Assembly (NCBI GenBank): GCA_022562295.1
Contig: JADFPO010000026.1
Coordinates: 1-38,328 of the forward strand
Origin: Gemmatimonadota bacterium
GTDB taxonomy: Bacteria > Gemmatimonadota > Gemmatimonadetes > Gemmatimonadales > GWC2-71-9
Length of the DNA: 38,328 nucleotides
Reading direction: 5' to 3'
In this document: positions 5,771 to 13,542 of the stretch, one piece after another
How the letters are laid out: each line of letters opens with the position of its first letter
How positions within the stretch are numbered: the stretch's first letter is position 1
Translations under genes and position numbers: made by a program
The notes under the pieces: model-generated
Told to the model about the DNA's origin: nothing
What the model saw: only the letters and a program-made list of their open reading frames with translations
The model's database searches: none

Positions 5771-5888
5771 TAGCGGTGTGTCGCCGTGGGGCCGTGGATC
5801 GGATGCCGGCGGATCGATTGCCCCCCCCCGCCCGCGGTGGGGCGGTTGCGCCATGTGTTCGGAATCGCCAAAGCCTAAGGAGAACGCA

Positions 5889-6680
5889 ATGCCCGTGTTT
5901 TCGGTATTTCGACGGATCGGTTTGACGGCGTGTGGCGCGTTGGGGTTGGCCATCGTCTCTGCGGGGGCGCTCAGCGCACAGGCCCTGCCGGTCGGCTCCA
6001 CCACCCTGGGAACGACGAGCACCGGCGCCGTGGCGTCGTACGAGTTCAATGCACCCTCGGCGGGCGTACTCACGGTAGCGGTTCGGGCAACGGGCGAAAC
6101 CGATCTCGTGCTCCTGGTAACCGACGCCGACGGCCAAGCGCTTCCCGATGGCCGGTCGGATCAGGATATCGGCGGCGACAGCGGCGCAGAGCAGGTGGCG
6201 ATCACGCTTCCGCGGGCGGGAAAATACTCGGTTCTGGTGCGTCCGTTCAGCTCGGGTCTGGGCGAGTTCCGGATCGGCGCGTCGTGGCTGGCGTTTCCGG
6301 AGTTGGAGCAGCCGGCCGACCCGGACGGTTCACCCAGCACGGCGAGGCCGATGACGGTGGGCGAAGGCATCAACGACACGATCGACCCATCGATGGGCGA
6401 TTATTGGGACTGGTTCTCGATCCAGATCACCCAGAGCGGGCAGCTGACGGTGGCGACGCGCGCCGAGGAGGGCGACCTGGTGTTGGAGTCATTCAACGAG
6501 GGCGAGTTCGCCGAGCCGTCCGAGCATTCGGATCAGGATCTGCAAGAAGTGAGCGGCAACGAGGCCATCGTGCTCTTCGTGACGGCCGGGCAGACGTTGT
6601 ACTTCAAAGTGTCGGCGTTCTCATCGACCGGCGGCGTGGCCATCGCATACCGGTTGACGGCCGGGTTGATCCCGGATTAA
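5889..6680 (+). CDS. Secreted protein with two PPC-like beta-sandwich repeats
   Basis: A 263-aa exported protein of unknown role. The signal peptide has a basic start (FRRIG), a hydrophobic core (LGLAIVSAGAL) and a likely cleavage after SAQA. Two similar halves follow: VASYEFNAPSAGVLTVAVRA... and DYWDWFSIQITQSGQLTVAT..., both with the Gly/Asp pattern and SDQD near the turn that are typical of bacterial pre-peptidase C-terminal (PPC) domains. These are usually found on secreted peptidases; no catalytic domain is present here. AAGGAG is placed well before the ATG, which decides this start over longer upstream reading. It stands between two minus-strand genes and has no obvious partner. Confidence 0.75.
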   Translation: MPVFSVFRRIGLTACGALGLAIVSAGALSAQALPVGSTTLGTTSTGAVASYEFNAPSAGVLTVAVRATGETDLVLLVTDADGQALPDGRSDQDIGGDSGAEQVAITLPRAGKYSVLVRPFSSGLGEFRIGASWLAFPELEQPADPDGSPSTARPMTVGEGINDTIDPSMGDYWDWFSIQITQSGQLTVATRAEEGDLVLESFNEGEFAEPSEHSDQDLQEVSGNEAIVLFVTAGQTLYFKVSAFSSTGGVAIAYRLTAGLIPD

Positions 6681-6687
6681 ACCCGGC
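6660..6687. terminator. Hairpin between convergent genes, possible bidirectional terminator
   Basis: GCCGGGTT (6660-6667) and AACCCGGC (6680-6687) form a perfect 8-bp stem with a 12-nt loop, overlapping the stop codon of the secreted protein gene and lying 22 bp from the end of the convergent Yip1-like gene. There is no U-tract on either side, so intrinsic termination is uncertain. Confidence 0.35.
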
Positions 6688-6709
6688 ATAGCCTCTTGCG
6701 GGCCACCGC

Positions 6710-7384
6710 TCATCCCTGGAGGTGCTGCAAGTACAGGGCGAGCGACACTCGTAAACCCGTGACCAGCCCCCACGCGCCACTGGTCACGGCCACGGCACCA
6801 GCGACTCTGATGCGCTGGGTGCTCACGAGTCCCACCACCATCAATGCCGCCCAAGCCAAATGAAAGATGCTGACCTGGCTCAGCAGGACATAGCTCCACG
6901 AGTCGCTCGCGGAATGTGCAAGCGCGATTGCCGCAAGGGACCCTGGTGAGGCGCTGAGCACCGACACATCAACAACATCCTGCCGCGCAATCCACACTAG
7001 CCGATTGAGCGACCCCGCAAGCGTTGCGACAAAAGCGATCGCAACCACACGAAACAGTTGTCGGAACGGGATGTCCACCATGCCAAGCAGACAAAACATC
7101 TGCACCACCAGCGTGATGAGCGCTACACGAGTCCACACTAACACTGGAATGGCCAGATAACTCCAACTTCTCACAGTGGCAAACGACTCAATTTGTCGAT
7201 CCACACTACTGTCGCCGAGCCGCTCCCTGAGTAAATCGCGATAGAACTCGGATGTCATGACGAACTCGTTGTTGATCCACGCAAGAGCAGCGCTCACGAG
7301 CACCAGCAGGACAAACACGTTCCACGTGCGAAGTGACACAGACACGGGCGAGCTTTCTGCGGAATCCGGCGTGGGAGATGACAC
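6710..7384 (-). CDS. Yip1-like integral membrane protein, last gene of the bacteriocin-type operon
   Basis: A 224-aa protein with about five or six hydrophobic helices (VFVLLVLVSAALAWI, WSYLAIPVLVWTRVALI, LFRVVAIAFVATLAGSL, VSIFHLAWAALMVVGLV and a C-terminal one). The arrangement recalls bacterial Yip1-domain proteins, though no diagnostic motif was found. I chose the GTG at 7384: AGGAAAG sits just upstream and the codon falls 17 nt after the exporter stop. The open frame runs further upstream, but only within the exporter gene. As the last gene of the peptide-export operon, encoding a small membrane protein of no known catalytic role, it is a candidate immunity protein; that is inference from position. 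Confidence 0.7.
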   Translation of the reverse strand: MSSPTPDSAESSPVSVSLRTWNVFVLLVLVSAALAWINNEFVMTSEFYRDLLRERLGDSSVDRQIESFATVRSWSYLAIPVLVWTRVALITLVVQMFCLLGMVDIPFRQLFRVVAIAFVATLAGSLNRLVWIARQDVVDVSVLSASPGSLAAIALAHSASDSWSYVLLSQVSIFHLAWAALMVVGLVSTQRIRVAGAVAVTSGAWGLVTGLRVSLALYLQHLQG

Positions 7385-7400
7385 GCTGCTTTCCTGGAGA

Positions 7401-9578
7401 TCACGCTGAGCGCGCAAGGGTGTGCCGAAAGTCGAGCAGCCTAGAGAACTCCGTTTGGCGCCCAAGTAGATCGCGCGGATTTCCTTCTTCCGCGATGCAG
7501 CCGCGACCGAGGACGTACACATAATCGGCACGGAGCAGAGTACCCAGCTGATGTGATACAAGGAGCACGGCATGTTGCTTCGAGTATCCGCTCAGCGTTG
7601 AAAAGATCCCTGATGCGGTTTCCCCATCGACGGTACTCAGGCCTTCGTCAATGAGCAGCACGCTCGGCGATCCAATCAGAGCCCGCATCAGCCCCACGAC
7701 CTGGCGCTCCCCCGACGAAAGCTTCCGACCCTGCTCACCCACGACTGTCATCAATCCAGCCGGGAAACGATTCAAGAGAGACCCTAGGCCTAAGACCTCG
7801 ATTCGTCGTTGCAACTCCGGCCCGTCAATTGGACGACCGAACACCACGTTATCGGCGATCGTGCCGTTAATGATCGCCGCACCTTCCGGGAGCACGGTCA
7901 CGTGCCTCCGGTACTCCTCGAGGTCAATAGACGGCGCGGGAACACTATCGATCAGCAGCTCGCCACCGGCCAGATCGTACTTGCGTTCCAGGATCTTGAT
8001 CAGTGTCGTCTTTCCGACGCCGCTCGCTCCACACAGCGCGGTAACGCGCCCGCGTCGAACGTGCAGATTGAGGTTCTCAAAGAGCGGATCACCTTTGGCC
8101 CATTTGAAGCGGCCGCCCCGGATCGCCAATTCTTGCCGCATTACGAAACGCTCGTTCCCCCCACCCACTTCTGGTCGCACGAGCAGCACATCCATCAGGC
8201 GTCTGGTCGCAACCTTAGCCTCCTGAAGCGACACATGGCTGTCGACAATCCGGATCGCTGCGGGCAGCATCGCCCCAAACAGGACATATGCCGCCATCAT
8301 CTGGCCGAGTGTTAGAGTGTCGTGGATGACCATGACCCCACCGGTGGTCAGCATGGCGACGACGAGCACGCTGGCTGCCATCTCGGTAAGGAGCACAATC
8401 CACGCATACGTCACACCAAATTTGGCGCCCTGCTCCTGGTATCTCTGGTACAACGTTCCGGTCAGCGTCGCAAAGAACTTGGTGGAGTTAAAACTTCTGA
8501 TCGCTTCGATTGTGGAAATGCTTTCGATGTAAGACGATTCCACGTTCGCAAAACTACGCATCACGTCGTTCTGCTCAGCTTGAACCCGCTGGGTGACCAA
8601 CCCAAGCAGTATCACGAAAATGGGAATGGCACCAACCGCCATCCATCCCAGGACTGGTGTAAGAGTGAATAGCAGGATCACCGATCCGACCACTACGAGG
8701 CCATCGATCGTCGTGCCTCCCAACGCGCGCAACACTGCACCCTGAATCTTCCCAATATCGGTGAGGCGCGCTGTGAGGTCGCCCGTTCGGTGTGATTCAA
8801 AAAACCGTGTCGGAAGTCTGAATAGATGACTGATGGCGTCCGTCGCGACCCGCGTACTGACGCGCTTATTCAGCTCCACCAAGAATCGCTGCCGGAAGTA
8901 CCCCGACGCGGCTCGAACGCCTTGAAGGGCGAGGAGACAAACGCCGGCCGCGATGAGCACCGGCACCGTCCTGCTGGGTATGAAGCGGTCGATTAACTGC
9001 TGCATGAATAGCGCTGTGAGAAGTCCCAGCGCGGTATGGATGAGGCCCAAAAAAATCGACTGTGATAGCCAGGCCTCCTCCCGCCGGAAATAGGAGAGAA
9101 TCCACGGGACCCAGTGGGGAGGCGTGGATCGAACGATGTTATCGGTAGGACTCAGCAACAGCACCGAACGAGTCTTCCAAAGGCTCAGAAAGTCTTCGCG
9201 ACTCAGCGTGTGCACGCCACGGGCGGGGTCGCCGACTAAGACGGAGTCACCGGCAATCCGGTACACGATGAGGTAGTGGGTCACACCGGACTCGAGCACC
9301 ACGTGAGCGATGCACGGCAAGGCGGTGGCCTTCAAGTCCTCAAACTGCCCTCGTGCCCCACTCGCCCTGAACCCGAGTGACTCGGCCGCATGGAGAAGCG
9401 CCAGCATCGTGGTGCCGTTGACATCCGTTTGGGCAAGTTCCCGAACTGCTACCAAGCCGGCGTCACCACCCCAGAACTTCAGGACGCTCAACAACGCTGC
9501 CGGGCCACAGTCGGTTTCATCGTACTGGCGAACGATTGGGAATCGCGGCCTGAACAGCTTGCGGATTTGCGCGGTCAA
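7401..9578 (-). CDS. C39 peptidase-containing ABC exporter (bacteriocin maturation and secretion)
   Basis: A 725-aa peptidase-containing ATP-binding cassette transporter. Counted from the TTG at 9578, the N-terminal C39 cysteine protease has RQYDETDCGPAAL (Cys24), THYLIVYRI (His101) and VGDPARG (Asp117), the complete catalytic triad. A six-helix membrane domain (about 170-450) and an ABC ATPase follow, with GASGVGKTTL (Walker A), LSSGERQ (signature) and VLLIDEGLS (Walker B). Such proteins cut double-glycine leaders and export the mature peptide. The TTG start overlaps the ATPase stop by 4 nt (TTGA) and has GGGG upstream; it gives the normal family length, whereas upstream extension lies wholly inside the preceding gene. 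Two candidate substrates are encoded in the same operon. Confidence 0.95.
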   Translation of the reverse strand: MTAQIRKLFRPRFPIVRQYDETDCGPAALLSVLKFWGGDAGLVAVRELAQTDVNGTTMLALLHAAESLGFRASGARGQFEDLKATALPCIAHVVLESGVTHYLIVYRIAGDSVLVGDPARGVHTLSREDFLSLWKTRSVLLLSPTDNIVRSTPPHWVPWILSYFRREEAWLSQSIFLGLIHTALGLLTALFMQQLIDRFIPSRTVPVLIAAGVCLLALQGVRAASGYFRQRFLVELNKRVSTRVATDAISHLFRLPTRFFESHRTGDLTARLTDIGKIQGAVLRALGGTTIDGLVVVGSVILLFTLTPVLGWMAVGAIPIFVILLGLVTQRVQAEQNDVMRSFANVESSYIESISTIEAIRSFNSTKFFATLTGTLYQRYQEQGAKFGVTYAWIVLLTEMAASVLVVAMLTTGGVMVIHDTLTLGQMMAAYVLFGAMLPAAIRIVDSHVSLQEAKVATRRLMDVLLVRPEVGGGNERFVMRQELAIRGGRFKWAKGDPLFENLNLHVRRGRVTALCGASGVGKTTLIKILERKYDLAGGELLIDSVPAPSIDLEEYRRHVTVLPEGAAIINGTIADNVVFGRPIDGPELQRRIEVLGLGSLLNRFPAGLMTVVGEQGRKLSSGERQVVGLMRALIGSPSVLLIDEGLSTVDGETASGIFSTLSGYSKQHAVLLVSHQLGTLLRADYVYVLGRGCIAEEGNPRDLLGRQTEFSRLLDFRHTLARSA

Positions 9579-10381
9579 AGGTGTCCCCGCCGTAGTCGCA
9601 GAGAATCGGATGCACCGGGCGGGCGATGCTCGGATCGGACGGCTCCGCTGCCGGTGATGCGGAGAAACACATCTTCGAGACTCTCGCCCTGGCCGCGGCC
9701 GTTTCGGCGGCACAGGTCTACCAAGGTGCCTTCAGCCACCAACCGACCGCGATGAATGATGCCGATGCGATCCGCGAGTCGTTCGGCAATCTCCATCACA
9801 TGCGTGGTGAAAAAGACAAGCTTGCCACTGTTGCGCGCTTCGATCATAAAGTCCTTCGCCAAGCGAGCACTCGCGGCGTCGAGTGCGCCCGTGGGCTCAT
9901 CCAACAGCAGGATGTCAGGCTCGTGCAGCAAGGCCGCGAGGAGCGCGATTTTCTTGCGCATGCCCAACGAATAGCACTTGACGAGCACATCGGCATCGTC
10001 CCCAAGCTCGAACCGATCGAGTTGCACGTCGATCCAGCGCAACCGGCTCACATCCAAGTCATACAGTTCAGCCATGAACAATAGGAATTCCCGCCCGGTT
10101 AGGTGCTCGTAGAGTGCCGGTTGCTCCGCCAAGTACCCAATCGTGCGCCGCACGCGGTGAATCTCTGACGATGTGACGCTGACGCCGTTGATGCGTATGT
10201 CCCCCGAGGTCACCATCTTCTGACCCATGACGGTCTGGATCGTGGTCGTCTTACCAGCACCGTTGGGGCCGAGAAAGCAGAACAATTCGCCAGCCCCGAC
10301 CTCGAGGGTAAGATCATCGAGAGCCTTGGAGTCACCGTACTGCTTGGTGACGTGCGCGATTTCGATACGCGGGCGGCTCAC
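9575..10381 (-). CDS. ABC transporter ATP-binding subunit
   Basis: A 268-aa ATPase. It has IEIAHVTKQYGDSKALDDL at the start, GPNGAGKTTT (Walker A), CYSLGMRKKIALLAALLH (a divergent signature with GM rather than SGGQ) and ILLLDEPTGALDAAS (Walker B with D-loop). This is the type that pairs with a separate large permease, as in drug or bacteriocin self-resistance exporters. The GTG at 10381 follows GAGGAG by 8 nt and lies just after the permease stop at 10384, so it replaces a longer in-frame ATG inside the permease gene. It should act with the permease encoded immediately upstream. It could be a secondary exporter for the peptides or an immunity transporter. Confidence 0.92.
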   Translation of the reverse strand: MSRPRIEIAHVTKQYGDSKALDDLTLEVGAGELFCFLGPNGAGKTTTIQTVMGQKMVTSGDIRINGVSVTSSEIHRVRRTIGYLAEQPALYEHLTGREFLLFMAELYDLDVSRLRWIDVQLDRFELGDDADVLVKCYSLGMRKKIALLAALLHEPDILLLDEPTGALDAASARLAKDFMIEARNSGKLVFFTTHVMEIAERLADRIGIIHRGRLVAEGTLVDLCRRNGRGQGESLEDVFLRITGSGAVRSEHRPPGASDSLRLRRGHL

Positions 10382-10383
10382 TG

Positions 10384-11958
10384 TCAGAGCTCCTCTTGGC
10401 GCAATCGCTGGGTTGCCCACCACGCCACCACGGAGCATGTAAGGCTGAGTCCCACGGCCATGAAGCTCAGCAACCAGGCATGGGTGACCGCGTCGAGCTG
10501 ATCTCGAGCAAGTTGCAGGTACGATGTCGCAGCGGTTACCGCGACGAGCCCGGCGAAACCCACGTAGAGATACTTGGCGGTGGCGGACGCTCCGGGCAGA
10601 AAAGCCGCGCGCCGCTGAAGATCTGGCAGCAAGAAGCCCAGTGTCGACGCAGCGATCGTCAGCACCGCGCCACCGATGACCCCAAGCGTCAAGAAAGGGA
10701 TCAGACCGAGACCTGGGAATCCAGTGATTTGCGCCGCGACGTAGATAAGTCCCGCGTGGAGAGCACTATGCACGACCACGTACACGCCGTTGGCAATCCC
10801 CTTGCGAACGAACAACTCCCCCGACGTAACAACGGGCCGCAACAGCGCCAGCTGCGCCCCCTCCTCACCTAAGCTGCTGAGACCGCGCAGCATGGCGAGC
10901 GCTGCAACGGATGAGAACAGAACCGCGACGAGCAGGGCGTTGTCGTGCACCGGTTCAAGAAACCCGCGGGCACGAGCCACGGCGGCAAGGACAACAGCAC
11001 CGACTTCAGCCGAAGCTACAAACCACTGTTCGCTCAAGTATCTTAGCGGCTCCCTCGCGTATGGAGCCACGACATCCTTGCGAACGAATGGCATCACTTG
11101 TCGCCAATAGGGAATTCCCCGCCACGACCCATCGAAGAGGGGGCGATAACGTCGTTTGACACCCGCTTGCGGTTCCAGCAACTCCGGGCCGACGGCCCGA
11201 GTCCAACCCCAGGTGCGCCGCAGGACAACGCCAACGATCATGATCATGACGGCGAGCCAACCTAGCAACTCCAACCAATTCCCTTCATCGGCACTCAGTG
11301 CGGCGCCAAGCGGGATCATGAAGAAATAGGAAGCACGAGCACCGGCCTCGCCGATCGTCGAGAGCCACTCGGGAGCGTTTGTGGCAACCGCCTTCAACGC
11401 GGCATGCGATACGGCGAACAGCATCACGAACAGAGTGCCGCCAACGCGGAACATCAGCTCAGCCCGCGTACGCATACCGGGCGACCGCACGAGGGCGCGA
11501 CAAACCGCTCCCGTCAAAACGCCGATCACCACGAGAAACGCAAGTGATGTCGGCAGATAGATCGACCATCCAAGCCATGGGTTGGTCAAACGGTTCGTGA
11601 ACGCATGTCCGAAGAAGATGTAGTGGAACGTGAGCAGATACAGAGCCCCCGACAACACGGTTGACACCAGCAATCGGTAGAGCGCGAGAGCCGGCATCGC
11701 TGTGGGGTGCGCCGCAAGCGGATCGTCTCCGCTCTTGATTATGAACACCTTCGCCAGCAGCGGTGGAATGAGGGTCATCAGGCTGGCAACCATCCCCAGG
11801 TGCGCTACCAACAGCAGCCCGGTCAGCTGGCTGGAGTTGACCGACACGGCCTGGAAGTGGTCTTCGGTGACTAGATTGAGAAGTGAGGGCAACCCAACGA
11901 TCAGCAACGCGACCCACAATTTACCCACCACCGTATCGCGCACGTTGGCGTATGCCAT
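10384..11958 (-). CDS. ABC transporter permease subunit (12-helix type)
   Basis: A 524-aa membrane protein with about twelve hydrophobic helices and a large polar loop around residues 270-320 (the RTWGWTRAVGPELLEPQAG region). It is the membrane partner of the ATPase encoded directly downstream. I start it at the ATG at 11958, which has only a weak ribosome site. The residues just upstream in frame (LWVITKWKCRLGIR) look like the usual amphipathic start of such permeases, but no ATG, GTG or TTG lies close before them; the nearest in-frame starts are the ATG at 12168 and GTG at 12192. The true start is therefore open. It belongs to the peptide operon by strand and spacing. Confidence 0.85.
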   Translation of the reverse strand: MAYANVRDTVVGKLWVALLIVGLPSLLNLVTEDHFQAVSVNSSQLTGLLLVAHLGMVASLMTLIPPLLAKVFIIKSGDDPLAAHPTAMPALALYRLLVSTVLSGALYLLTFHYIFFGHAFTNRLTNPWLGWSIYLPTSLAFLVVIGVLTGAVCRALVRSPGMRTRAELMFRVGGTLFVMLFAVSHAALKAVATNAPEWLSTIGEAGARASYFFMIPLGAALSADEGNWLELLGWLAVMIMIVGVVLRRTWGWTRAVGPELLEPQAGVKRRYRPLFDGSWRGIPYWRQVMPFVRKDVVAPYAREPLRYLSEQWFVASAEVGAVVLAAVARARGFLEPVHDNALLVAVLFSSVAALAMLRGLSSLGEEGAQLALLRPVVTSGELFVRKGIANGVYVVVHSALHAGLIYVAAQITGFPGLGLIPFLTLGVIGGAVLTIAASTLGFLLPDLQRRAAFLPGASATAKYLYVGFAGLVAVTAATSYLQLARDQLDAVTHAWLLSFMAVGLSLTCSVVAWWATQRLRQEEL

Positions 11959-12223
11959 GCGGATACCCAGCCTGCATTTCCACTTTGTAATTACCCAAAG
12001 AGTTCGCGTGTCATGAAGCCAGACACTGTTGGCCTTGGTTCGTTCGTTAAGCGTGAAGGAGTGTACCGTACAGGTTGACGCCTCGTGCGCGCCGCAGCCG
12101 ACCGCGCCGGACGCAGGGGCCCCTCGGCCATCCAGGGGACGGTGCGAGGAACCCCGCGCGAACGTCATCAGCCAACGGGTGCTCACGCCCACTGCAACCC
12201 GCGGCAGAGGCGACCTCTTACCT
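11959..12223 (-). other. Gap between the peptide genes and the ABC permease
   Basis: This 265-bp stretch separates the second small peptide gene from the permease. It holds no third double-glycine-leader peptide in any minus frame. A 46-codon ATG frame at about 12130-11993 lacks a leader pattern. A small palindrome TGTACcGTACA lies at 12062-12072. No U-tract terminator or good promoter is visible, so transcription probably reads through. Confidence 0.5.
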
Positions 12224-12397
12224 CTACGCCAAGCACGCGGCCCAGCCCGAAGCTAAGCTGAACAACGCGAATTTCGATACCGGCTCCGGGCTCAATAAGA
12301 CCGCCAAGGTGGCCGCGCCCGTGAGGCCACACAGAACCCCTCCCCAGAACCCTTCACCTTCGAGCCGCTCCATTTGCTGTATTGTCAATGCCTGCAT
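12224..12397 (-). CDS. Small double-glycine-type leader peptide, partner 2 (putative bacteriocin precursor)
   Basis: A 57-aa peptide with a very strong ribosome site (AAAGGAGAACC before ATG 12397). The leader MQALTIQQMERLEGE keeps the C39-leader pattern: Leu4, Met9 and Leu12 at -12, -7 and -4, and Gly14 at -2. Position -1 is Glu15 where Gly is expected. The core starts GFWGGVLCG, with overlapping GxxxG motifs (Gly16, Gly20, Gly24), then a hydrophobic stretch broken by SPEPVSK, and ends FSLASGWAACLA. Cys23 and Cys55 are its only cysteines. The leader and core start match the neighbouring peptide (12493-12660), pointing to a two-peptide system. It lies 95 bp after that gene in the same operon as a C39 exporter. 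No database match was available; bacteriocin identity is inference. Confidence 0.85.
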   Translation of the reverse strand: MQALTIQQMERLEGEGFWGGVLCGLTGAATLAVLLSPEPVSKFALFSLASGWAACLA

Positions 12398-12492
12398 TGG
12401 TTCTCCTTTATGAATGTGAAGTGGACGCTCGGCGCTCGATACACTCAGTGCTCGACCCCACCGAAGTGGCGTTCACTCTATGGATCAAACGG

Positions 12493-12660
12493 TTAGGCGT
12501 AATGCTCGATGAGGCACACACCGATCGCCTTGCTTATCAGGTATCCTGCCAACAGAGGGCCGGAAAAAATGCCGGCGCCGATCGTGGCGCCTATGGCGAC
12601 GCCACACCAGAAACCACCACCGGTTAATACGTCCATCTGTTCCACGTTTAGCGTATGCAT
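12493..12660 (-). CDS. Small double-glycine leader peptide, partner 1 (putative bacteriocin precursor)
   Basis: A 55-aa peptide. AGGACAG precedes the ATG at 12660, which lies 9 nt after the stop of the thioredoxin-like gene. The leader MHTLNVEQMDVLTGG fits the C39 consensus: Leu4 at -12, Met9 at -7, Leu12 at -4 and Gly-Gly at -2/-1. The core begins GFWCGVAIGATIGAGIFSG, a chain of GxxxG motifs (Gly16, 20, 24, 28, and 30/34), the helix-packing pattern known from class IIb two-peptide bacteriocins. It continues PLLAGYLISKAIG and ends VCLIEHYA. Cys19 and Cys49 could form a disulfide. It is hydrophobic with little charge. The peptide encoded at 12224-12397 shares the leader and the GFWxGVxxG start. 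Confidence 0.88.
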   Translation of the reverse strand: MHTLNVEQMDVLTGGGFWCGVAIGATIGAGIFSGPLLAGYLISKAIGVCLIEHYA

Positions 12661-12669
12661 GATTCTGTC

Positions 12670-13311
12670 CTATCTACCGGGTTGAAGTTGTTGCGGTCTG
12701 ATGTCGATGGGTGGCCGACTCGCCGGCGAAAGCACGAGGGGAGGGATCGTGCACGGCCCCGATTCAGCAGGGGCTGATGCACACGCCGAACCCGACGCAC
12801 GTGCTCCTCCGTCGAGCAACACCTCGTGCTTCGTTTCCCCCCTCCAGCTCTGCAGCAGACGGCCGTTTCGATCGTACAGGAACAGCGCGGGCGTAACCGA
12901 CACTCCGAAGTACCGGTCCCGCTTGGCAGGCTGGATCACGCCCCATGTGACCTGATCCGACCCGCGCAAACGCGGCCAGCGGCTCATCCACTGTGCATTG
13001 AGCGCGTGTTCCGTTGTGAAGAGATACAGTCTGGTGTTCTGGAGGCGATCCACGTGAGCTTCGAGTTCGTCGAACTCATTCGCACAATGCCCACATGTGC
13101 TGTTGAACAGGATGACGAGTGTGCGTCCGTGTCTGTTGAGCCGGAACGTTGCTGAACCCTCTACTCCCTGGAAAGCGAACGACGCCGGCAGTGACTGCGG
13201 AACACGTGAGGCACCAGGCATCGTGCCCACCCATCCGGCACTCATCAAAACGCCGGTGAATACGGTGGCCGCGATGACCCGCTTTTTTCGGGAACGCCCT
13301 GGCACGCTCAT
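12670..13311 (-). CDS. Membrane-anchored thioredoxin-like (redoxin) protein
   Basis: A 213-aa protein with an N-terminal membrane anchor (RKKRVIAATVFTGVLMSAGW) and a thioredoxin fold outside the membrane. LVILFNSTCGHCANEFDELE carries the redox CxxC (CGHC), and VSVTPALFLYDRNGRLL has the cis-proline loop. After the fold, a tail of about 45 residues rich in Ala, Ser and Pro with two more cysteines (GSACASAPAESGPC) is unlike TlpA or ResA proteins. The ATG at 13311 is preferred to an upstream GTG at 13380 because it places the basic-hydrophobic anchor normally; its ribosome site is weak. It is the first gene of the peptide operon, so it may form or isomerise disulfides in the two-cysteine peptides. 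Confidence 0.85.
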   Translation of the reverse strand: MSVPGRSRKKRVIAATVFTGVLMSAGWVGTMPGASRVPQSLPASFAFQGVEGSATFRLNRHGRTLVILFNSTCGHCANEFDELEAHVDRLQNTRLYLFTTEHALNAQWMSRWPRLRGSDQVTWGVIQPAKRDRYFGVSVTPALFLYDRNGRLLQSWRGETKHEVLLDGGARASGSACASAPAESGPCTIPPLVLSPASRPPIDIRPQQLQPGR

Positions 13312-13397
13312 TGGTCTGGTCCGATTACCCAGTTCGGTGTCATTCGCCTTAGGGTGAAGACGGCATGGAGCCAACGACACCCAGCGACGCGAGCCAA

Positions 13398-13429
13398 CCT
13401 ACCGAGGCGGCGTCAACGGGACTTCAACG
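13398..13429 (-). promoter_or_regulatory. Putative SARP-type direct repeat and promoter of the peptide operon
   Basis: On the minus strand CGTTGAA (13429-13423), 4 bp, then CGTTGAC (13418-13412) form heptamer repeats with an 11-bp period. Eight bp after the second repeat comes a weak -10, GGTAGG (13403-13398). The same heptamer, period and 8-bp spacing occur before the SARP gene (17201-17232). Poor -10 and -35 elements are typical of activator-dependent promoters. The leader to the ATG at 13311 would be about 80 nt. Confidence 0.6.
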
Positions 13430-13507: not shown

Positions 13508-13542
13508 TTAAAAAGAGCCGGACCTCAAACGAGATCCGGCTC
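13508..13542 (-). terminator. Rho-independent terminator of the ACT-domain gene
   Basis: On the minus strand GAGCCGGA pairs with TCCGGCTC (8 bp), with an inner CTC/GAG stem closing a GTTT loop, followed directly by TTTTTAATC. It lies about 70 bp after the ACT gene stop and separates that gene from the peptide operon. Confidence 0.92.

Follow-up and report, generated by a model that had tools for sequence, protein, structure and literature searches.

The subject of this analysis is a locus in a Gemmatimonadota bacterium where two small genes, encoding precursors that we call peptides A and B, lie among genes for a thioredoxin-like protein, a second ABC (ATP-binding cassette) transporter, an exporter with a C39 peptidase domain, and a small membrane protein. 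The window, that is, the whole stretch of DNA that was analysed, is one whole contig (C170) of 38,328 bp, from a genome of 3.79 Mb in 210 contigs that is 94.6% complete. We refer to the window's own genome as G000, to a congener as G001, to a member of the same family as G072, and to a member of the same order as G097. Every gene from 13311 to 6710 is on the minus strand, and the features of the locus are as follows, in the order in which they would be transcribed.

13515..13542, minus strand: terminator-like hairpin of 12 pairs, then TTTTT (consensus scan)
12670..13311, minus strand: putative membrane-anchored TlpA-like thioredoxin, motif CGHC (profile matches, CxxC invariant; probable start ATG 13311)
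12493..12660, minus strand: peptide A precursor; predicted cleavage gives leader MHTLNVEQMDVLTGG and core GFWCGVAIGATIGAGIFSGPLLAGYLISKAIGVCLIEHYA
12224..12397, minus strand: peptide B precursor; predicted cleavage gives leader MQALTIQQMERLEGE and core GFWGGVLCGLTGAATLAVLLSPEPVSKFALFSLASGWAACLA
10384..11958, minus strand: polytopic permease of the second ABC transporter, ~524 amino acids (candidate immunity transporter)
9575..10381, minus strand: ABC ATPase, DrrA-type, the permease's partner (GTG 10381 behind AGGAG)
7401..9578, minus strand: predicted C39 peptidase/ABC exporter of the PCAT (peptidase-containing ABC transporter) type; catalytic Gln, Cys, His and Asp conserved
6710..7384, minus strand: helical membrane protein of an unrecognised family (candidate immunity protein; start about GTG 7384)

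The hairpin (13542-13515) closes the preceding gene ahead of the locus and forms its upstream boundary. Behind it the genes are tightly spaced: the ATG of peptide A lies 9 bp past the stop of the thioredoxin-like gene, the ATPase starts directly after the permease stop, and the exporter's TTG overlaps the ATPase stop, so that the only wide gap in the locus is the ~265 bp behind peptide B. Because of this tight spacing, the arrangement suggests a single transcription unit. A consensus scan recognised no sigma70-type promoter in the locus, and neither Rfam families nor tRNA genes were found in the window. The likely true starts are TTG 9578 for the exporter, GTG 10381 for the ATPase, and about GTG 7384 for the last gene; the start of the permease, for which a Pfam search gave no match, is uncertain, and its relatives point to a start further upstream. 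With respect to base composition, considered as a sign of recent foreign origin, the locus is the contig's most GC-poor 6.6-kb stretch (0.596 versus 0.62-0.65), while the corresponding loci in other genomes match their flanks.

Since the two peptide genes are so short, we wish to establish that they are genes. An initial annotation of this DNA had placed small genes at 12493-12660 and 12224-12397, and open reading frames of 55 (A) and 57 (B) amino acids with ATG starts lie exactly there. Ribosome-binding-like sequences precede both, AGGA 7 nt before A and AAAGGAG 5 nt before B. The predicted cores begin with GFWCGVAIG and GFWGGVLCG, contain four and two GxxxG motifs, respectively, and carry two cysteines each; thus, the ribosome sites, the GFWxGVxxG starts, the GxxxG motifs and the cysteines had all been described correctly. 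One might nonetheless argue that two frames of this kind are chance open reading frames beside an unrelated ABC transporter, given that they are short, and that the window's own peptides have no significant family match. Against this, the double-glycine-type leader pattern occurs at 2 of the 819 start codons that open frames of 35-90 amino acids in the window, exactly those of A and B, and in 0 of 18,384 frames from 20 mononucleotide shuffles. This pattern was drawn up after the family had been seen, and therefore the independent test of the genes' reality is conservation. Between the window and G001, the proportions of synonymous (pS) and nonsynonymous (pN) differences are 0.68 and 0.24 for peptide A, and 0.65 and 0.20 for peptide B; between two more distant genomes, G263 and G267, they are 0.63 and 0.25 for A, and 0.65 and 0.10 for B. 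Such values indicate that both peptides evolve under purifying selection. In the latter comparison the core of B is better kept than its leader (pN 0.04 versus 0.28). With sequence, position and codon pattern conserved in this way, and with the leader unique in the window, we reject chance frames as exceedingly improbable, and we take the two small genes to be real.

The leaders share a common register, L-12, E/Q-8, M-7, L-4 and G-2, counted from the predicted cleavage site. The initial annotation had spoken of matching double-glycine leaders, and the shared leader is indeed present; the canonical Gly-Gly end belongs to peptide A only. In four loci (G000, G072, G263 and G267) the leader of peptide B ends in Gly-Glu (window 12353-12397; L021 1250-1294; L068 3265-3309; L069 3574-3618), which is outside the usual Gly-Gly, Gly-Ala or Gly-Ser. 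Because the hydrophobic leader positions keep their register, the alignment supports a predicted cut behind Gly-Glu. These Gly-Glu leaders suggest that the C39 peptidase accepts glutamate at P1, or else that the cut is shifted.

We searched a profile of six peptides against 395 genomes of the phylum, and its matches sit beside exporters related to the window's. Exporters 38-49% identical to that of the window occur in G072 and in 6 of the 121 genomes of another family (G263, G267, G331, G346, G398 and G406). The initial annotation had set in advance, as the test of its proposal, whether the small frames persist where the exporter is kept. The proposal survives this test, for at each of the eight close exporter loci, that of the window among them, two or three leader peptides lie nearby, in the case of G267 with the peptides on one contig and the exporter on another. 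Most of these loci pair an A-type peptide (CGVxxGATIG...C) with a B-type peptide (GFWxGxxCG...SPDPxSK...C), which are distinct families; the pair of G331 is a type of its own. In G001 the order is thioredoxin, a degenerate copy of A, A, B, and permease, up to the end of the contig. A more distant full set, in rearranged order and at about 4339430-4345700, is found in G097, a Gemmatimonas aurantiaca-like genome: thioredoxin (profile E 8e-23), two double-glycine peptides, C39 exporter, membrane protein (2e-29), ATPase and permease. Three of the phylum's families carry the locus. A scan of public genomes with the exporter returned only distant C39 exporters of other phyla, and a plasmid search with peptide B gave no match. 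The degenerate A copy of G001, with its C-terminal part out of frame, precedes the intact one (L031 534-689), and such a copy is also seen in a second contig of G000, C14, as far as that contig reaches (L075 8690-8802). Because it is present in both, it is probably not a sequencing error.

The number of core cysteines is even in all 21 listed precursors (two in each, four in those of G331), and the span from the first to the last cysteine is 30 residues in 10 of the 21 and 32 in five B peptides. One to four GxxxG motifs are present in every one of these cores. The protein encoded ahead of the peptides has a hydrophobic N-terminus and two CxxC cysteines that are invariant in six members, and its profile matches thioredoxin-family structures (3hcz, 4e-6; TlpA 1jfu, 0.005); we therefore class it as a TlpA-like thiol-disulfide protein with a predicted thioredoxin fold. 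The simplest inference from the even cysteine counts and their spacing, together with the linked CxxC protein, suggests an intramolecular disulfide that closes a helical hairpin in each core. AlphaFold models the core of peptide B as helix-turn-helix, at a predicted local distance difference test (pLDDT) score of 61 that is too weak to serve as evidence. The four core cysteines of the G331 pair lie 11, 8 and 11 residues apart (L071 6693-6845 and 6940-7092, minus strand), a symmetrical spacing such as one would expect of a helical hairpin held by two staples. The thioredoxin gene is linked to the locus in G000, G001, G072, G331 and G097, and was not seen beside the loci of G263, G267, G346, G398 and G406; therefore it would be helpful rather than obligatory, or general oxidases substitute for it.

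The exporter carries C39, ABC membrane and ATPase domains, and in an alignment of 12 exporters its catalytic Gln, Cys, His and Asp never vary. Among its relatives with solved structures, PCAT1 ranks first and ComA second, and against the NCBIfam model TIGR01193 it scores 355.7 bits, below the cut-off of 523.85. From its domains and residues we assign it as a predicted C39 peptidase ABC exporter of the PCAT type. Transporters of the C39 type in diderm bacteria are described as working in a complex, whose other members are an accessory and an outer-membrane protein (PMC6363468). The clade's locus contigs gave no match to the HlyD family (PF13437). An HlyD gene does directly adjoin other C39 exporters in the phylum (G398:C93, G332:C53 and G364:C145), and G398 holds both kinds of exporter. 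The window's genome contains five HlyD_3 matches, and an adaptor encoded elsewhere could serve the exporter.

The initial annotation had the strand and the identities of the thioredoxin-like protein, permease, ATPase and C39 exporter right, but it had called the last gene Yip1-like. That label is rejected: searches of Pfam (with eight members), of PDB sequence profiles, and of PDB folds (AlphaFold2 followed by Foldseek, no E < 0.001) give nothing. The membrane-protein family has matches in 12 of the 395 genomes, and the full-length strong matches all fall within these loci.

We turn to the distribution of the locus among genomes, which is patchy. In G301 the sequences that flank the G406 locus are present, and of the locus itself a shortened remnant of the last gene is all that is left (L097, G301:C105, 4100-4911). 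We had considered an intact orphan immunity gene there, a candidate that is rejected, since ~61 N-terminal residues are missing and the remnant looks like that of a deletion; G301 is thus, on the evidence of its sequence, a near-empty site from which the locus appears to have been deleted. In G001, other genes occupy the site of the window's locus, so that the locus stands at different sites in G000 and G001. G000 has a second copy of the locus, on C14, which is truncated by the contig end inside the repeated peptide genes. This copy matches the locus of G001 at 96.5% identity over 810 bp (L075 7994-8802 versus L032, G001:C232, 3994-4802), whereas the backbones of G000 and G001 are about 70-77% identical (~77% for the gene that adjoins the window's locus). 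Because its identity lies so far above that of the backbone, the C14 copy points to either a recent interspecies transfer or a mis-binned contig. Taken together, these patterns suggest that the locus is deletable and probably mobile.

On the basis of the gene content (paired leader peptides, a C39 exporter, a private ABC pair, a membrane protein and a redox helper) and of the patchy distribution, we consider with moderate confidence that the locus is a two-peptide, bacteriocin-like antagonism system with candidate ABC and membrane immunity proteins; the precedents of thermophilin 13 and Cdz, discussed below, also support this interpretation. For cleavage, export, disulfide formation, joint action, target and immunity, we infer the following course. 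Peptides A and B would be made as inactive precursors, whose helical leaders the C39 domain of the exporter would recognise and cut behind, and the exporter would then move cores of ~40 residues out of the cytoplasm. Once past the inner membrane, the core cysteines, ~30 residues apart, would be joined, with help in this branch from the TlpA-like CxxC protein. The product would be a pair of hydrophobic helical hairpins, each stapled by disulfide and with many small-xxx-small packing motifs, which may act jointly in the membrane of susceptible neighbouring cells, probably related ones, while the producer would owe its protection to the ABC ATPase and permease, to the small membrane protein, or to both.

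Several points weigh against this interpretation. The mature peptides of class IIb bacteriocins are cationic; the net charge is 0 for both of the window's cores, and ranges from -3 to +4 across the family. A constrained partner or structure would account for the better preservation of the core than of the leader between G263 and G267 no less well than an arms race. Neither the ABC pair nor the membrane protein is more than a candidate for immunity, each named from its position. Finally, no adaptor or outer-membrane protein is linked to the locus, and for this reason the route of release from a diderm cell is unexplained.

This last point bears on a different explanation, in which the adaptor-less exporter releases the cores into the periplasm, and they act on the producer's own membranes, for example in contact-dependent display, envelope stress or programmed lysis. 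The contrast between the clade's locus contigs and the phylum's HlyD-adjacent exporters is in keeping with it, as are the fact that the closest solved relative, PCAT1, is a single-membrane exporter and the fact that Cdz proteins remain on the producer's surface. We think it unlikely, given that genes for the missing adaptor and outer-membrane protein may lie in another part of the genome, as its HlyD_3 matches allow, and that two-peptide pairing and an ABC pair suit secreted antagonists equally. The peptides could also be structural or adhesive, that is, non-toxic components of a biofilm matrix or surface assemblies that are C39-exported, as in the precedent of EbfG1-4 and PteB of Synechococcus elongatus (PMC4997328); neutral cores rich in Gly and Ala, with small-xxx-small motifs, could well assemble. 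Yet the private ABC pair and the membrane protein that is specific to the locus resemble immunity functions, and so patchy a distribution, with apparent mobility, is less expected of a matrix component, so that we give a structural role, too, only a small chance.

Pheromones, too, can have double-glycine leaders and leave the cell through C39 exporters, for example ComA, and the peptides could accordingly be signals. Two constrained hydrophobic cores of ~40 residues with disulfide-type cysteines are unlike short pheromones, however, and no regulator is evident in the gene lists of related loci. The adjacent sensor-kinase gene belongs to the backbone, for it stays in G001 where the locus is absent from the site; two-component signalling through this kinase is therefore rejected. 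Because no regulator was seen to travel with the locus and the kinase is backbone, signalling in general seems to us quite improbable. A further proposal, which we regard as doubtful though worth stating, is that the locus represents a distinct diderm two-peptide class: disulfide-stapled helical hairpins with a fixed ~30-residue cysteine span would be matured and exported by an adaptor-less C39 exporter to the periplasm, be oxidised by a dedicated TlpA-like protein, be handled by an ABC pair of their own together with a new membrane-protein family, and act in or from the producer's envelope rather than diffuse freely.

It remains to compare the bacteriocin-like system that we favour with systems already described. 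One of the closest is thermophilin 13 (ThmA/ThmB), a bacteriocin of class IIb whose cluster includes thiol-disulfide oxidoreductases and a C39 exporter (PMC10059821). The two share a pair of adjacent small precursors, double-glycine-type leaders, GxxxG motifs, the exporter, and a thiol-disulfide oxidoreductase gene. Thermophilin 13 differs in its monoderm host, in its pheromone and two-component regulation, and in a CAAX protease as its candidate immunity protein, and the present locus in its neutral cores, fixed ~30-residue cysteine span, ABC pair, and unrecognised membrane protein. Curated class IIb models give only sub-threshold matches, and these to some of the relatives (best Bacteriocin_IIc, 5e-4; TIGR03949, 0.027; NF038035, 0.027). 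The initial annotation had invoked class IIb bacteriocins on the strength of the pairing, the leader and the GxxxG motifs, all of which hold; because the tests of charge and of family models fail, we do not file the locus as a member, and class IIb serves as an analogy. What stands in full is its broader description: a two-peptide double-glycine locus that brings along a dedicated C39 exporter and a thiol-redox protein, in a lineage for which few such systems have been described.

Among diderms, Cdz of Caulobacter crescentus (CdzC/CdzD, CdzAB and CdzI) is a contact-dependent two-protein bacteriocin (PMC5380434) that, by its description, resembles the locus in having two hydrophobic proteins rich in small residues, a dedicated type I exporter, and a membrane immunity protein (here a candidate). 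CdzC and CdzD are 86 and 84 amino acids long with RTX-like signals, unlike the peptides of 55-57 amino acids described here, which have a C39 leader and cysteine pairs; the present locus also has a redox gene and an additional ABC pair, and no adaptor is linked to it. Systems of the microcin V type have in common with the locus a C39 exporter and a leader similarity (Pfam MccV, weak, with E 0.11 for peptide A and 0.012 for the best of the relatives); this match is far below the cut-off, and the locus has no HlyD beside its exporter and two peptides rather than one. The EbfG/PteB system (PMC4997328) is similar in its several small proteins with a GG motif and in their processing by a C39 peptidase-transporter, but its function is in biofilms, its precursors are larger (9-10 kDa), and no immunity-like ABC pair has been described for it. 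With PCAT and ComA exporters, the window's exporter shares an identical domain order and the catalytic residues, and it is set apart from them by its score below the TIGR01193 cut-off and by a diderm setting without a linked adaptor.

Two further observations concern other loci of the phylum. L099 (G170:C1:3154000-3170000) contains, at 5792-10400, a related locus with a weak homologue of the membrane protein, a CxxC thioredoxin-like protein, an ABC ATPase and permease, and three precursors with apparent Sec-type signal sequences, a propeptide ending in VVGG or QGG, and cores with CxxC...CxxxC; a separate C39-domain match lies at 10003-10377. These are possibly peptides of the same kind that follow a different export route. 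Other Gemmatimonadota C39 exporters, several of them HlyD-adjacent, lie near different double-glycine peptides, ones that lack the conserved cysteine pair (L024 613-997, L025 1252-1695, L077 3407-3586 and L078 2733-2903).

Gemmatimonadota can make up 2-10% of bacterial communities, and only about six of their species have been characterised (PMC11271474). We found no description of a peptide-based antagonism system in this phylum in the literature that we searched. For Gemmatimonas aurantiaca T-27, a published antiSMASH table contains only terpenoid, lanthipeptide and nonribosomal peptide synthetase (NRPS) clusters and, because it lists no such cluster, the locus appears to be unreported for that strain. 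The locus is best called a variant of the double-glycine two-peptide systems, apparently an unreported one. It raises the question of how a diderm uses a C39 exporter without an adjacent HlyD partner, all the more so with both kinds of exporter present in G398. The locus is compact, and since a genome resembling that of a cultured relative carries the full set, peptide competition in this phylum would be directly testable.

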